A stretch of 64,000 nucleotides of DNA from Hydrogenophaga sp. (lineage in GTDB: Bacteria; Pseudomonadota; Gammaproteobacteria; Burkholderiales; Burkholderiaceae_C): assembly GCF_026125785.1 (NCBI RefSeq), contig NZ_JAHCKL010000004.1, forward strand, positions 124,001-188,000, written 5' to 3'. Shown here one piece after another: positions 47,005-52,443 of this stretch. The notes beneath the pieces were generated by a model that worked only from the letters and a program-made list of their open reading frames with translations, was not told the origin of the DNA and searched no databases. Numbering within the stretch: position 1 is the first letter of the stretch; each line of letters opens with the position of its first letter. The position numbers and the translations under genes were made by a program.

Positions 47005-47033
47005 AGAATGCAATGGATTCTAGAGATTCCCAA

Positions 47034-48041
47034 ATGTTCTCTTTCTTCCGAAAAAAGACTCCCTCCCCGCCCCCCCCTGCCGATCCCGCGCCAACGGCGG
47101 TTGCTGCGGCACCGGCACCCGCCGCGAACGAGACACCGGCCACGCGCCAGGGCTGGCTGGACCGCCTCAAGGCCGGCCTGCGAAAAACCGGCTCGGGCAT
47201 TGCCACGGTGTTCACAGGCACGCAGATCGACGAAGCCCTGTACGAAGAACTGGAAGCGGCACTGCTCATGGCCGACACTGGCGTGAAAGCGACCACGCAC
47301 CTGCTGGACGACCTGCGCCGCCGAGTGAAAGAGAGCAAGGCCACCGAGCCGGCCGCCGTCAAAGGCTTGCTGGCCGATGCCATCGCCGATCTGCTCCAGC
47401 CGCTGCAGAAACCGTTGGTGATTGGCGAGCACCGACCCACTGTGATCATGGTGGCCGGTGTCAACGGCGCCGGCAAGACCACGTCCATCGGCAAACTCAC
47501 ACGCCATCTGGCCGACGAAGGTGCCTCGGTGCTGCTGGCCGCGGCAGACACCTTCCGCGCCGCCGCGCGCGAGCAGCTCGCGGTCTGGGCCGACCGCAAC
47601 ACGGTGGAGATCGTGACCCAGCAAGGTGGCGACCCCGCCGCGGTGAGCTTCGATGCCGTCACGGCCGGCAAGGCGCGCGGACGCGACGTCGTGCTGGTGG
47701 ACACGGCGGGCAGACTGCCCACACAGCTCCATCTGATGGAGGAATTGCGCAAGATCAAGCGGGTGGTGCAGAAGGCCGACCTCACGGCCCCGCACGAAGT
47801 CCTGCTGGTGATCGACGGCAACACCGGACAGAACGCGCTGAACCAGGTCAAGGCCTTCGACGATGCCTTGCAACTTACGGGGTTGATCGTCACCAAGCTG
47901 GACGGCACGGCCAAGGGCGGTGTGCTGTGCGCCATTGCGCGCGAAAAACCGGTGCCCGTCTACTTCATCGGGGTGGGTGAAAAACTCGAGGACCTGGAAA
48001 CCTTTGACGCGCGCGAGTTCGCGCAAGCCCTGTTGGCCTGA
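47034..48041 (+). CDS. ftsY: Signal recognition particle receptor FtsY
   Basis: A 335-residue SRP GTPase that docks ribosome-SRP complexes at the membrane. After MFSFFRKK and a short Pro/Ala-rich linker (a much reduced A-domain) come the N domain and G domain with GVNGAGKTTSIGKL, DTFRAAAREQL, DTAGRLP and TKLDGTAKGG. The start at 47034 matches the conserved MFSFF(R/K)KK. The short acidic domain is usual in this family of bacteria. Confidence 0.96.
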   Translation: MFSFFRKKTPSPPPPADPAPTAVAAAPAPAANETPATRQGWLDRLKAGLRKTGSGIATVFTGTQIDEALYEELEAALLMADTGVKATTHLLDDLRRRVKESKATEPAAVKGLLADAIADLLQPLQKPLVIGEHRPTVIMVAGVNGAGKTTSIGKLTRHLADEGASVLLAAADTFRAAAREQLAVWADRNTVEIVTQQGGDPAAVSFDAVTAGKARGRDVVLVDTAGRLPTQLHLMEELRKIKRVVQKADLTAPHEVLLVIDGNTGQNALNQVKAFDDALQLTGLIVTKLDGTAKGGVLCAIAREKPVPVYFIGVGEKLEDLETFDAREFAQALLA

Positions 48042-48048
48042 GCCCGTC

Positions 48049-48258
48049 TCAGAGTTCTTCGTCGCTGTAGCGGCGCCACTGCCCCATGGCGCTGCGCATG
48101 AGCTGAAGCTGGCGCTCGAACCGGGGGCACGCAGCGCATACCGCCAGGTGCAGCCGCAAAGCCAGGCGATCCAGAATGGGCAAGGCACGGTCCTCCCTGG
48201 CAATCAGCAGGGCGCTGACTTCCTTGCAGGTACGGCGCAGCGGATAGCGGGCTTTCAT
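48049..48258 (-). CDS. Small zinc-finger protein, putative anti-sigma factor (zf-HC2/ZAS-like)
   Basis: A 69-residue soluble protein starting MKARYPLRRTCKEVSALLIA. The Cys near residue 11 and the H-x3-C-x2-C cluster (HLAVCAAC) form the zinc-binding anti-sigma pattern of ZAS proteins. There is no transmembrane segment, so sensing would be cytoplasmic (redox or metal at the zinc site). The ATG overlaps the stop of the ECF sigma gene, as expected for a sigma/anti-sigma pair. It is the likely brake on the divergent bufferin-like operon. Confidence 0.8.
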   Translation of the reverse strand: MKARYPLRRTCKEVSALLIAREDRALPILDRLALRLHLAVCAACPRFERQLQLMRSAMGQWRRYSDEEL

Positions 48259-48833
48259 GGTGTGCGGGCAAACCAGTGCAGTTCCAGACACTCGCGCAGG
48301 CGCAGGCGCGCGCGGTGCAGTTGCACGTAGAGATTGGTCGGCGTGAGAGACAGTTCCTTACATATTTCTTCGCTGGACAACTCCAGCCACTCACGCATGA
48401 GAAACAGACGCCCTTGGACCGCAGGAAGTTTTTCTGCACAGGCCTCCAGCACGGCGAAGAACTGACGGCGGCCCAGATCCTGTTCGGGATTGCCCCAGTC
48501 GGCGGGCGGTTCGATGTAGTGCCCGTCCGCGTGGAAAGCCATGTCTTCGAGCGGATCGGCACGCTCATCCTCGCCATCCCCCGGCGCTTGCACCTCGCGG
48601 CGGTGCTGGCGCAGCGCATCGATGATCTTGTGCTTGAGGATGCCGACCATCCAGGTCTTGAGTTGGGAGCGCTGAGCGAACCCCTGCGGTTTCGCGAGCG
48701 CCGCCAGCAGGGCCTCGGACACCGCATCCTCGGCCCAGGTCTCGTTGCGCAACTGCAGGCGAGCGAACTTCAACAGGTAGCCGCGCAGGTCGGCGACTTG
48801 CTGTTCAAAGGATCCGGCCTCGGAAGTCGACAT
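48255..48833 (-). CDS. ECF-type RNA polymerase sigma factor
   Basis: A 192-residue sigma-70 family factor with region 2 (YLLKFARLQLRNETWAEDAV and LKTWMVGILKHKIIDALRQH) and region 4 (RLFLMREWLELSSEEICKEL, TPTNLYVQLHRARLRLRECL). There is a 25-residue linker with acidic Asp/Glu. It is divergent from the DUF2282-DUF692-DUF2063-DoxX operon. In Cupriavidus metallidurans the gold-induced gig genes lie beside an ECF sigma (RpoQ), so this factor probably drives the adjacent operon. Start at 48833; a 48866 start lacks support. Confidence 0.9.
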   Translation of the reverse strand: MSTSEAGSFEQQVADLRGYLLKFARLQLRNETWAEDAVSEALLAALAKPQGFAQRSQLKTWMVGILKHKIIDALRQHRREVQAPGDGEDERADPLEDMAFHADGHYIEPPADWGNPEQDLGRRQFFAVLEACAEKLPAVQGRLFLMREWLELSSEEICKELSLTPTNLYVQLHRARLRLRECLELHWFARTP

Positions 48834-48896
48834 GCGGGCTGAGTGTAATGAAGGTGCGCTCGCCACACGCAGCGACCTTTTCTTTTTTTGCTCAGC

Positions 48897-48924
48897 GTAA
48901 GAAAACGCGGCTGCGCCAGACCAA
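48897..48924 (+). promoter_or_regulatory. Candidate ECF promoter of the bufferin-like operon
   Basis: GTAAGA at 48897-48902 and GACCAA at 48919-48924 are separated by 16 bases, a spacing usual for ECF promoters; GTAA-N16 resembles SigF-type promoters that drive homologous clusters. It lies about 100 bases upstream of the DUF2282 start. Read by eye only. The 187-base divergent interval otherwise shows no clear element. Confidence 0.3.
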
Positions 48925-49020
48925 TGTTCAACCCGCGAGGCTTGGTGGCTCCGCCGTCATGGCCACGGGTTGATGTTTCCCTCTGTCCACTTCTTCTTTC
49001 CAACCCAACCGGAGCTCTCC

Positions 49021-49302
49021 ATGAACCAACGTCAACTGATCGCCGCCGCCGCCACCTCCCTGATGTCGATGGCCTTGCTTTCCTCACCCGCCCTGGCGCA
49101 GAACGCCGCCAAAGAGAAGTGTTATGGCATCGCCAAAGCCGGGCAGAACGATTGCGCCAACCTCGCCGGAACCCACTCCTGTGCAGGCCAGGCCAAGATG
49201 GACCACGACCAGGGCGACTGGAAATACGTGCCTGCAGGCACCTGCAAGCAGATGAAGGGCATGACGCAGGACGAAGCCAAGATGGGCATGAAGAAGTCCT
49301 GA
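49021..49302 (+). CDS. DUF2282 exported Cys-rich peptide, bufferin (BufA1-like) RiPP precursor
   Basis: A 93-residue precursor. Residues 1-26 are a Sec signal peptide (LSSPALA, cleavage before QNAAK). The mature part has four cysteines at 34, 45, 54 and 75 in the DUF2282 pattern [21 protein letters not shown] and YVPAGTC. In bufferins the MNIO enzyme converts core cysteines to thiooxazoles that bind copper before export. The tail is Met/Lys-rich ([13 protein letters not shown]). The homologue in C. metallidurans is the gold-induced GigP. Which cysteines are modified here cannot be seen. Confidence 0.85.
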
Positions 49303-49325
49303 GCGCGCGCGCGGATGCACCAGCC

Positions 49326-50252
49326 ATGACCGCCGATACCCCCGCATTCGCCCACGGGACGGTCAGCCCAGTCGGCATAGGCTGGCGGCATCCGCACTAT
49401 GCAGATCTGCTGGAGAACCCATCGGGACTGGACTTCATCGAAGTCCACAGCGAGAACTTCTTTGCCGAAGGCGGCGCCGCACGCGCCGTGTTGCGGCAAG
49501 GCCGCGAGCAGTTGCCTGTGAGCCTGCATGGCGTGGGCCTTGCACTGGGGTCCGCCCTGGGCATTGACGACGGGCACCTGGATCGGCTCGCCCGCCTAGT
49601 GACCGACGTCGAACCCGTGCGCGTGAGTGACCACGCCTGTTTTGCGCGTGGCCCTCTGCAGCCCGACAGGGTGGGCGCCACCGCAGTCCACGCCGCCGAC
49701 CTGCTGCCCATTCCCTTCACCTTCGAAGCCCTCGACGTGCTGTGCGCCAATGTGCAGCGCGTGCAGGACCGCCTGCGCCGCTCCATCCTGGTGGAGAACC
49801 TCTCCGCCTATGTGCACTGGCGCGATCAGGAGATGGACGAGGTCGAGTTCCTCGTTGAACTGGTGCGCCGCAGCGGTTGCTCGGTGCTGCTTGACGTAAA
49901 CAACCTGTTCGTCAATGCGCTGAACCACCAGAGAGCAGGCCTGGGAGGGGATCCGCTGGCGGCTTGCATGCGTTGGCTGGATGCACTGCCCCGGGACAGC
50001 GTGTCGGAGATACATCTGGCCGGCCATCGCGACTGTGAGGACATCGTCATCGACGACCACGGCAGCCGCGTGGCCGCACCCGTCTGGCGGCTCTATCACC
50101 ACGCCCTGAGGCGGCTGGGACCGATCCCTACGCTCATCGAATGGGATACCGATCTTCCACCCTATGAAGTCCTGCTGGAAGAAGCCGCTCTCGCGCGCCG
50201 GCATGCCGCAGACGCCGCTTCCCGCGCGCAGCGCCAGGAGACAACGACGTGA
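49326..50252 (+). CDS. DUF692 multinuclear non-heme iron oxidase (MNIO), BufB/GigA-like
   Basis: A 308-residue TIM-barrel enzyme with the MNIO metal-ligand pattern: HSENFF (His41, Glu43), [11 protein letters not shown] (His68), VSDHACF (Asp102, His103), [23 protein letters not shown] and [13 protein letters not shown] enzymes oxidise cysteines in RiPP precursors; here the substrate should be the DUF2282 peptide encoded 23 bases upstream. The start at 49326 was chosen because homology begins at GIGWRHPHY. It is followed by its DUF2063 partner with a 4-base overlap. Confidence 0.92.
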
Positions 50253-51067
50253 ACACGCCCCTGACATCTCAGGGACGCCTGGCCCAGCAGCAGTCTCTTC
50301 TGCTGCACGCACTGTTCTCGCCCCCATCCCGGAGCGAATCCACACCGTGGCTGCGAGCCCCGAGCGAGCGGGGCCTGCAGGCCTACCGGGCGAACGCCGG
50401 CGTGCTGGCCGAGCGAGCCCTGCGCGCGGCCTACCCGGTGGTGGCCAGCCTGCTGGGCGAACGCAACTTCGCGCCGCTGGCGCGCGAACATTGGCGCGAG
50501 CATCCACCCGTACAAGGCGATCTCGCCCTATGGGGCGCGGCGCTGCCCGAAGGGCTGCGACACCACCCTCAACTGGTCACGCTGCCCTATCTGGCCGATG
50601 TGGCCCGTGTCGAATGGGCCATGCATAAAGCGGCCGGTGCGGCAGACCTGACGCTGGACGCCGACAGCTTCGGACACCTCACACGGGACGACGCCGACAC
50701 ATGGGGCCTGCGCCTGGCACCCGGCACGGCCCTGGTCTCCAGCCCATGGCCGGTGGTCAGCCTGATCCAGGCCCACACATCGGGCTCACCCTCCCTGGAC
50801 GATGTTGCGCAGCGAATCCAGCAACGCGAGGCGCAGTGCGCGCTCGTCTGGCGCGCGGGCATGCGTACCACGGTGGCGGCCTGCACGCCGGCGGAGTGCG
50901 CGTTTCTGCAGGCCCTCGCCGAAGGCAAAGCCCTGTCCCATGCCTTGACGCTGGCGGTCGACGGCGGCGAGGACTTTGCCCTGGTGGAATGGCTGCAACA
51001 GGCCGTCATGCGGGGCCTGGTGCTGGGCGCCGTACCCGCCCTACCCGACAACGAGGCATTTTCATGA
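50249..51067 (+). CDS. DUF2063 protein, MNIO partner (BufC/GigB-like)
   Basis: A 272-residue protein. The N-terminal DUF2063 domain is visible as [43 protein letters not shown], and the C-terminal part resembles the RRE-like fold that recognises RiPP precursors. It is required with MNIO for peptide modification in known systems. It starts with GTG at 50249 in a GTGA overlap with the DUF692 stop, and its own stop overlaps the DoxX gene (ATGA), so the operon is fully coupled. Confidence 0.88.
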
Positions 51068-51543
51068 CGCACCCTCCCTTGCTGCAGCGCATTCAATCAC
51101 TCTGGACCCCGATCGCCCGCCTGCTCGATCTCATGCGGCCTGCTGCCGTGCTGGGCGCGCGCCTCTATGTGGCACAGGTGTTCGTGCTCTCGGGCCTGAC
51201 CAAGTTGCGGGACTGGGACACCACGTTGCTGCTTTTCACCGAGGAATACCACGTGCCTCTGCTGCCCCCCGCGGTGGCGGCGGTCGCGGGTACTGCAGGC
51301 GAACTGGCGTTGCCCGTGTTGCTGACGTTGGGCCTGGCGGGCCGCTTCGCCGCACTGGGCCTGTCGGTGGTCAATGGAGTCGCCGTGCTGAGCCTGGCAG
51401 AGATCGCCCCGGCGGCACTGCAGTTGCACGTCACCTGGGGCGTGCTGCTGGGGGCGCTGGTCTTCCACGGCATGGACCGGTGGTCGCTGGACCACCGGCT
51501 TGCGCTCAGCCGACGACCGGGGTCCTGCCTGACGGCTTCTTAA
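51064..51543 (+). CDS. DoxX family membrane protein (GigT-like)
   Basis: A 159-residue inner-membrane protein with about four transmembrane segments and the DoxX signature LGARLYVAQVFVLSGLTKLRDWDTT. DoxX proteins are the usual last gene of gig/bufferin operons, and may provide electrons or redox partners from the quinone pool to the periplasmic or peptide-modifying step, but this is not established. The start overlaps the DUF2063 stop (ATGA). The C-terminus is basic and cytoplasmic. Confidence 0.88.
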   Translation: MTHPPLLQRIQSLWTPIARLLDLMRPAAVLGARLYVAQVFVLSGLTKLRDWDTTLLLFTEEYHVPLLPPAVAAVAGTAGELALPVLLTLGLAGRFAALGLSVVNGVAVLSLAEIAPAALQLHVTWGVLLGALVFHGMDRWSLDHRLALSRRPGSCLTAS

Positions 51544-51603: not shown

Positions 51604-52443
51604 ATGAGCCCAGCCACCGCCTGGCTCGAAGCCGCCTTCCTGGGGTTGATCCAGGGCCTCACCGAATTTCTTCCTGTCTCGTCCAGCGCCCATCTGCGCA
51701 TCATCGGGCCCCTGTTGCCTTCGGGCGGTGACCCGGGCGCGGCCTTCACCGCGATCACCCAGATCGGCACCGAGGCCGCCGTGCTGCTGTATTTCCGGCA
51801 CGATATCGTGCGCATCTTTCTGGCGTGGTGGGCTTCCTTGACCCAGCCTGCCCGGCGCTCGGACCCCGATGCGCGGATGGGCTGGCTGATCATCATCGGT
51901 TCCGTGCCCATCGTGGTGCTGGGGCTGCTGTTCAAGGACGCGATCGAGGGTTCGCTGCGCAACCTGTACATCACCGCGACCATGCTGATTCTGTTTGCGC
52001 TGGTCCTGGCCGCGGCCGACCGGTTCAGCCGGCGTGAGCGCACGCTGGACCGGCTCACCTGGGGCCATGGCCTGCTGTTCGGGCTGGCGCAGGCCATGGC
52101 GCTGATACCCGGCGTCTCCCGCTCGGGCGGCACCATCACTGCGGGCCTGCTCATGGGCTACACACGTGAAGCGGCTGCTCGCTACTCCTTCCTGCTGGCC
52201 ATACCCGCCGTGATGGGCTCGGGCTTCTACCAGCTCTTCCGCAGCTGGCAGCACGGCAGCCCGGTGGCACCTGGTCCCACGGCGCTGGCTACGTTGATCG
52301 CCTTTGGCGTCGGTTACGGCGTGATCGTGCTGTTCCTGCGCCTGGTCTCCACGCGCAGCTACATGCCCTTCGTCTATTACCGCGTTGCGCTGGGCCTGCT
52401 GGTGCTGGGTCTGCTGGGAGCCGGCCTGCTCTCCCCCCTGTAA
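51604..52443 (+). CDS. uppP: Undecaprenyl-diphosphatase UppP (BacA)
   Basis: A 279-residue polytopic membrane phosphatase that recycles undecaprenyl pyrophosphate for cell wall synthesis. The motif [18 protein letters not shown] near the N-terminus and [17 protein letters not shown] in the second half form the active site; about eight transmembrane helices. Normal length. Sixty bases after the DoxX gene, in the same direction but functionally unrelated to it. Confidence 0.96.

Follow-up and report, generated by a model that had tools for sequence, protein, structure and literature searches.

A bufferin-type gene cluster and the regulatory pair beside it were analysed in a 64,000-nucleotide stretch of Hydrogenophaga sp. 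DNA (contig NZ_JAHCKL010000004.1), referred to as the window, which belongs to a genome of 4.17 Mb that is 94% complete. The cluster comprises genes for a peptide precursor, an MNIO enzyme, a DUF2063 protein and a DoxX protein, and it is divergent from the genes of an extracytoplasmic function (ECF) sigma factor and a small zinc-finger protein. All six genes had been named in an initial annotation made from the letters alone, and all were confirmed (Table 1). The four operon proteins passed the Pfam cut-offs of the families to which they had been assigned (DUF2282, DUF692, DUF2063 and DoxX). Furthermore, the genes overlap or nearly so, as had been described, with 23 bases between the precursor and MNIO genes and 4-base overlaps at both the MNIO/DUF2063 and the DUF2063/DoxX junctions.

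Table 1. Genes and predicted promoters of the bufferin cluster and its regulatory pair (positions in the window).
Feature	Position	Strand	Details
Soluble zinc anti-sigma (ZAS)	48049..48258	-	69 aa from ATG; 80 aa from GTG at 48291
ECF sigma factor, TIGR02943/PRK12520 type	48255..48833	-	192 aa from ATG; 203 aa from GTG at 48866
Predicted sigma-dependent promoter inside the sigma gene (GTAAGGA-N15-GACCAA)	48334..48361	-	Anti-sigma ATG 75 nt downstream
Predicted sigma-dependent promoter of the bufferin operon (GTAAGAA-N15-GACCAA)	48897..48924	+	Precursor ATG 96 nt downstream
Buf1/DUF2282 bufferin precursor, 93 aa	49021..49302	+	Pfam DUF2282, E 6e-26, 90.6 bits (cut-off 22.4)
MNIO maturase (BufB, DUF692), 308 aa	49326..50252	+	Pfam PF05114 (MbnB_TglH_ChrH), E 3e-94
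DUF2063 MNIO partner (BufC-like), 272 aa from GTG	50249..51067	+	Pfam DUF2063, E 9e-15
DoxX-family membrane protein, 159 aa	51064..51543	+	Pfam DoxX, E 6e-14, 52.9 bits (cut-off 23.6)

The precursor carries a signal peptide, called by inspection and hydropathy, and cysteines at positions 34, 45, 54 and 75, in agreement with the first description. All four cysteines were invariant in 80/80 aligned precursors, and the six-gene cluster is therefore not a product of chance. The MNIO narrowly exceeded the cut-off of the NCBIfam model MNIO_BufB (NF050167; 313.2 vs 310 bits). Its annotation as a DUF692 enzyme with a full His/Glu/Asp ligand set was upheld for the family, and for the ligands at the level of the conserved motifs LHG, SEN, VEN, DVNN, NH, HLAGH and EWD, which were seen in the sequence and in an alignment to 3bww. 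The operon is a Buf1 bufferin cluster of the ordinary kind in its gene content and layout. It shares with the known Buf1 clusters (BufA-BufB-BufC-DoxX) the four core genes, the signal peptide, the four cysteines and an MNIO over the BufB cut-off, so that the bufferin identity given in the annotation holds as the Buf1 type by the DUF2282 match, the BufB cut-off and the DoxX gene. A Buf2 identity of the precursor was dropped, with 28.8 bits against a cut-off of 60 for NF050166 (BufA2) and four cysteines rather than six. In Buf1 peptides, as described in PMC12452194, the two central cysteines are modified and the outer two are joined by a disulfide. By analogy, the central pair of the window's precursor would be Cys45/Cys54 and the outer pair Cys34/Cys75.

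The sigma factor scored 225.2 bits with TIGR02943 (cut-off 162.2) and 293.5 bits with PRK12520 (cut-off 255), and its sigma-70 regions 2 and 4 passed the Pfam cut-offs. Its closest named relative, from Hydrogenophaga sp., was 82% identical, and a search for relatives on plasmids gave matches below 60% identity only. The anti-sigma gene, whose ATG overlaps the sigma stop codon, encodes a protein that scored 28.3 bits with zf-HC2 (cut-off 22.2) and 61.8 bits with NF052368 (cut-off 50). Searches of the PDB gave no credible relative of this protein or of the DUF2063 protein. Its residues C11, H37, C41 and C44 make up the Hx3Cx2C motif with an upstream cysteine. Moreover, no membrane span was found in it (maximum 19-residue hydropathy 1.39), and the cytoplasmic location proposed in the annotation agrees with its small size, its zinc-anti-sigma motif and the lack of a span. 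The ligands reported for RsrA (C11/H37/C41/C44) are at identical positions, and those of MseR (C4/H30/C34/C37) have equal spacing (as given in PMC2893595). Residue spacing and the lack of a span point to a cytoplasmic anti-sigma of the RsrA/MseR type, which is predicted to inhibit the sigma factor and to respond to thiol redox state.

This differs from the Buf1 clusters of PMC12452194, whose main text mentions no anti-sigma other than NrsF for them and does not contain the words zinc, zf-HC2 or ZAS; the window's anti-sigma is a soluble zinc protein. No NrsF match was found in the window's genome at its 94% completeness, and NrsF was present in 36/200 genomes of the family. A comparison of coordinates by hand placed an MNIO gene no more than 3.3 kb from NrsF in at least 14 of these 36, and 13 of the NrsF-adjacent MNIOs among the matches listed were only 40-52% identical to the window's MNIO. 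The exception was G117 (L090, G117:C37:11000-24000), with a window-type operon, a 60%-identical MNIO and NrsF 3.2 kb away. In this genome the operon motif described below was missing, and an unlinked sigma orthologue (L152) had TGC at the Cys158 codon and no internal motif. Although a single case, it is consistent with two distinct types of switch. Bufferin-type clusters would fall into two regulatory branches, one with a membrane NrsF-type and the other with a cytoplasmic zinc-thiol anti-sigma.

The conservation of the cluster was studied in related genomes. MNIO relatives were sought in 200 genomes of the family at a threshold of E 1e-30 and were found in 118; the 80 best-scoring MNIO matches out of these 118 genomes were fetched and, with the window, formed the set of family loci. 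The sigma gene was divergent from the precursor gene, with the zinc anti-sigma gene following it, in 57/81 loci. An operon motif was defined as GTAAG with a GAC whose first base lies 20-24 bases beyond that of GTAAG, with 200 sets of dinucleotide shuffles of the upstream regions as the control. The motif was present upstream of the precursor in 65/80 loci, compared with shuffle counts that averaged 0.34 and never exceeded 2. Although offsets of 20-24 were allowed, only 22 (36 times) and 23 (29 times) occurred. The link between sigma factor and operon, whose absence the initial annotation had named as a refutation, was thus supported both by this ECF-type motif and by the conserved neighbourhood. 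The strict pattern GTAAGRAN{13,16}GACYAA had 2 matches in the 64-kb window, 0 in 100 shuffles and 3 across the whole genome. The third genome match (C12:157593) lay within possible coding frames on both strands and was taken as chance. Toward the sigma gene, the motif was found in 0/57 loci in a scanned stretch of at most about 250 bases (shuffles, mean 0.25). The operon motif resembles, with a similar -35 box, the Neisseria sigmaE promoter GTMAGBWTT...CGTCTAAH given in PMC2893595. Promoters of the sigma-70 kind were also searched for in the region, and none were found.

The same motif was found inside the sigma gene, directed at the anti-sigma gene, where it occupies the codons Cys158-Asn167 of the DNA-binding helix-turn-helix in region 4. 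Codons were counted in 84 sigma orthologues of at least 54% identity, and a separate group held 14 distant paralogues from within the bacterial family. A further 40 sigma loci were chosen by hand with five weak matches omitted. The internal motif occurred in 70/84 orthologues with an offset of 22 in every one, while synonymous resampling from codon usage (1000 runs) gave a mean of 3.3 and a maximum of 11. It was present in 0/14 distant paralogues, 12 of which keep the cysteine (11 as TGC and one as TGT) and two of which lack it. No codon of the gene deviated from codon usage more strongly than that of Cys158, which was TGT in 76/91 sequences (more than 150 bits) against 16.3 expected, with a z of 16.6 compared with up to 9.8 in other deviating columns. 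In the 84 orthologues, which share common ancestry and are not fully independent, TGT was used 75 times at Cys158, and at 20% and 12% for Cys132 and Cys182, respectively. In addition, codon 165 was NCG in 81/84 orthologues despite a residue that varied between Pro, Ser, Ala and Thr. Common descent alone explains little of this, because the other synonymous columns change at almost the rate obtained when labels are shuffled. In a set of named contigs, TGT was found in 77 of the 78 parsed (out of 80), several of these contigs being shared with the first set and hence not independent of it. By hand count, adjacent bufferin genes were lacking for 5/9 orthologues with TGC and 21/75 with TGT; a link between the loss of the internal TGT and the absence of these genes was too weak to claim.

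At the level of the order, 60 loci were chosen by hand from 130 genomes with a match. The codon was TGT in 37 of them, and TGTCAG, which is near the Neisseria box, was found in seven loci besides those with TGTAAG. CGTC replaced CGAC in some loci after a Thr-to-Ser change. Occurrence varied with gene layout. TGTAAG or TGTCAG was found in 9/15 loci with the sigma gene upstream on the same strand, 2/3 divergent loci (in the third, L348, the anti-sigma match too lies on the opposite strand), 1/2 convergent loci (L362, L363) and 0/8 loci in which the sigma gene follows the bufferin genes on the same strand. In this last layout, an operon promoter could reach the anti-sigma gene. A single family accounts for four of these eight loci and a second one for three, so that the layout pattern is suggestive only. 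Four order-level loci presumed from their layout to be kin of Neisseria also lacked the internal motif.

Outside the window, the motif was found upstream of msrP, the gene of the periplasmic methionine-sulfoxide reductase. This gene was found in 18/18 genomes and was preceded by the motif in 16/18. In the window's genome, msrP (L191, G000:C9:66072-67076) carries TTTGTAAGAATCGGCGCTGTCCCACGACAG at -82, and its product scored 478.9 bits with NF003767 (cut-off 207). In eight relatives, seven of which had one, the strict pattern was matched at 20 places. The genes following them encode five bufferin precursors, two TlpA-like thioredoxins, one exported thioredoxin and one MsrP-like protein. Three further places were inside sigma genes, and one each was at a TVP38/disulfide-oxidoreductase, an MTAP-like and an ArsS-like gene. 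The remaining five, three at a ribosomal-protein gene and two unclear, were taken as chance. MsrP, TlpA-like proteins and thioredoxin were named by Pfam/NCBIfam and the rest by eye. The TlpA-like gene was found in 11/18 genomes, with GTAAG upstream in 7 of those 11 in the stretch scanned; it had no match in the window's own genome. The predicted co-target msrP points to methionine/thiol oxidation at least as much as to soft metals. According to PMC2893595 and PMC7907618, the corresponding sigma factor in Neisseria and Haemophilus controls methionine-sulfoxide reductases too. By this analogy, the tie between this type of switch and methionine repair appears to be shared with these genera, the enzyme being different. 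A bufferin, as a copper-buffering peptide, would be connected with periplasmic methionine repair through a promoter motif that is open to testing.

Related candidate targets were seen near the cluster in several family loci. Between the sigma and precursor genes, L032, L034-L037, L041, L043, L044, L056, L059 and L067 have a gene for an exported TlpA/ResA-like protein with a CxxC motif (CAVC; CPVC in L056), often with its own motif copy. In L032, a glutathione-reductase-like gene (by eye) also lies within the 2300-base gap between sigma and precursor. Divergent motif pairs at L034:1398/1470, L035:28/77 and L032:949/997, about 7-9 kb from the sigma gene, separate a TVP38/disulfide-oxidoreductase gene from an MTAP-like or ArsS-like radical-SAM gene (by eye). 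At L051:10855 and L056:9434, the motif precedes the gene of a second small Cys-containing exported protein, BufA2-like by eye, upstream of a second MNIO gene.

Taken together, the Buf1 operon is probably controlled by an ECF sigma factor under the restraint of a cytoplasmic zinc anti-sigma of the RsrA/MseR type; once released, the sigma factor would make the bufferin, MsrP and its own brake, and not itself. Oxidation of the C11/H37/C41/C44 zinc site, or metal attack on it, would cause the anti-sigma to let go. The freed sigma factor is predicted from conserved sequence to transcribe the precursor-MNIO-DUF2063-DoxX operon from the promoter upstream of the precursor, and msrP elsewhere in the genome. 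From the promoter inside its own gene it would transcribe the anti-sigma gene, and it would not drive its own gene, activation thereby producing the brake in a negative feedback loop with no positive feedback. As known for these families, the MNIO and DUF2063 proteins may convert Cys45 and Cys54 of the precursor to 5-thiooxazoles, with a disulfide between Cys34 and Cys75, and the exported peptide may sequester periplasmic copper. For the internal motif itself, we hold with moderate confidence that the region-4 DNA at Cys158-Asn167 is a promoter for its own sigma factor, driving the anti-sigma in a brake-only loop in which sigma does not drive itself, and that it is conserved across many genera of the family and partly across the order and is missing where the sigma gene follows the bufferin genes on the same strand. 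If true, one DNA stretch would be selected twice, as protein and as promoter. With an active internal promoter, this widespread stress switch would contain a compact feedback device with dual coding.

Besides the shared ancestry of the orthologues, several results speak against this circuit. The operon motif was missing in 15/80 operons and the internal motif in 14/84 orthologues, and TGTAAG occurred in 24/60 order-level loci. No sigma gene was matched beside the cluster in 24/81 loci (23, plus one in which the precursor was not found either; some of them at contig ends). The two msrP genes without the motif were both in genomes of one genus. The DUF2063 protein matched the HvfC model weakly (18.1 bits, cut-off 142), and a C-terminal RRE domain, expected of such a partner protein, is only putative in it. 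A looser pattern found the same 3 genome places, with 18 in the reversed control, and missed msrP; genome-wide pattern counts alone therefore prove little. Ten genomes (G110, G047, G091, G101, G103, G098, G197, G046, G074 and G163, the last two being 90% and 70% complete, respectively) had the operon motif and no TIGR02943 match over the cut-off, and a similar motif was close by in 4/8 more distant ECF loci inspected. Another ECF sigma factor, or more than one, may therefore read the motif. A different ECF of the genome might then be the main reader of the operon promoter, with the neighbouring sigma as a bystander, and the ten genomes and the four distant loci speak for this. However, the neighbourhood of sigma and operon is kept in 57/81 loci, the same motif is kept inside the sigma gene, and the runner-up TIGR02943 match in the window's genome scored only 57 bits, which makes a bystander role unlikely.

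The internal motif might also serve as an mRNA element, as a holoenzyme roadblock that represses sigma, or under some other constraint on codons, in place of an anti-sigma promoter. Its position in conserved region-4 codons and the deviation of other columns in the gene are compatible with this, and intragenic sigma binding with no productive transcription has been described (PMC10771440). However, the operon and msrP promoters share both boxes and the 22-base offset with this motif, the motif is directed at the anti-sigma gene, codon 165 stays NCG while its residue varies, distant paralogues have TGC in 11/14 and the motif in none, and the motif is absent in all eight loci with the sigma gene downstream on the same strand. 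These alternatives are considered rather improbable. A membrane anti-sigma that reads periplasmic copper or gold, as in the gig-type RpoQ-RsqA or Caulobacter SigF-NrsF switch, is very improbable. Peptide genes of the same kind stand divergent from a sigma/anti-sigma pair in gig (PMC10304878), and NrsF is named for Buf1 clusters as described above, but the window's anti-sigma has 69-80 residues, no span and a ZAS motif, and NrsF is unmatched in the 94%-complete genome; as an account of the anatomy, the membrane type was rejected. As for the signal, there is a little less than an even chance that it is reactive chlorine or another methionine/thiol oxidant, with copper handling as a side effect. 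The predicted msrP target, the thioredoxin-like targets in relatives, the RsrA-like zinc residues and the link of H. influenzae RpoE2/HrsE with HOCl and MsrAB (as described in PMC7907618) are in favour of this. On the other side, bufferins reportedly act on copper (PMC12452194), and the meningococcal rpoE and msrA/msrB transcripts, in the account of PMC2893595, showed no response to peroxide, diamide or singlet oxygen.

The proposed circuit can be compared with known systems. Among the genes of gigPABT-rpoQ-rsqA from Cupriavidus metallidurans, which the initial annotation had also matched to the cluster, GigA is presumably an MNIO. In the description of PMC10304878, GigA is termed a metal-binding protein, GigP is a small exported Cys-containing protein, GigB has DUF2063, GigT is DoxX-like, and the operon is divergent from the sigma/anti-sigma pair. 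The match stands for these peptide genes and fails for the regulatory system, since RsqA is predicted to be membrane-bound, and the window has a soluble anti-sigma with RsrA/MseR spacing and no NrsF (RpoQ and RsqA were compared by description). Moreover, rpoQ-rsqA is read as RpoD-dependent in PMC10304878, which presents no evidence of RpoQ-driven gig expression and no proven RpoQ target. The gig analogy therefore holds for the peptide genes, not for the switch. The Neisseria sigmaE-MseR and Haemophilus RpoE2-HrsE systems, as described in PMC2893595 and PMC7907618, are similar in their small cytoplasmic anti-sigma and their DoxX-like, MNIO-cluster and methionine-sulfoxide reductase targets. In Neisseria, unlike the window, there is a single autoregulated operon and the Msr enzyme differs, the window's genome having MsrP. 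The gonococcal precursor is of the EGKCG type (PMC13097082), unlike the window's precursor. In H. influenzae, RpoE2 exerts very limited control over its own gene according to PMC7907618. A sigma-dependent promoter within the sigma gene that drives the anti-sigma is known as P3 of E. coli rpoE/rseA (PMC8595263). However, sigmaE there drives its own operon too, the site is more than 200 nt upstream compared with 75 nt in the window, where no motif is directed toward sigma, and the sigma and anti-sigma families differ from the window's. No report of an internal anti-sigma promoter for this sigma family was found among the open-access papers listed on the subject. The bufferin cluster is of a known kind; its wiring from the sigma factor to its own brake, as predicted from sequence, is new.

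Additional motif copies were seen inside the operon, before or near doxX, in L052, L065, L091, L101, L104 and L106. Distant ECF genes in L381, L385, L386 and L387 have a similar GTAAG...CGAC close upstream, directed away from them, and L381 has an additional similar motif downstream of the ECF gene. A scan of the window for RNA families gave four tRNAs and nothing else. The cluster is flanked by ftsY (47013-48041), which is convergent with the anti-sigma gene at a gap of 7 bases, and by bacA/uppP (51604-52443).

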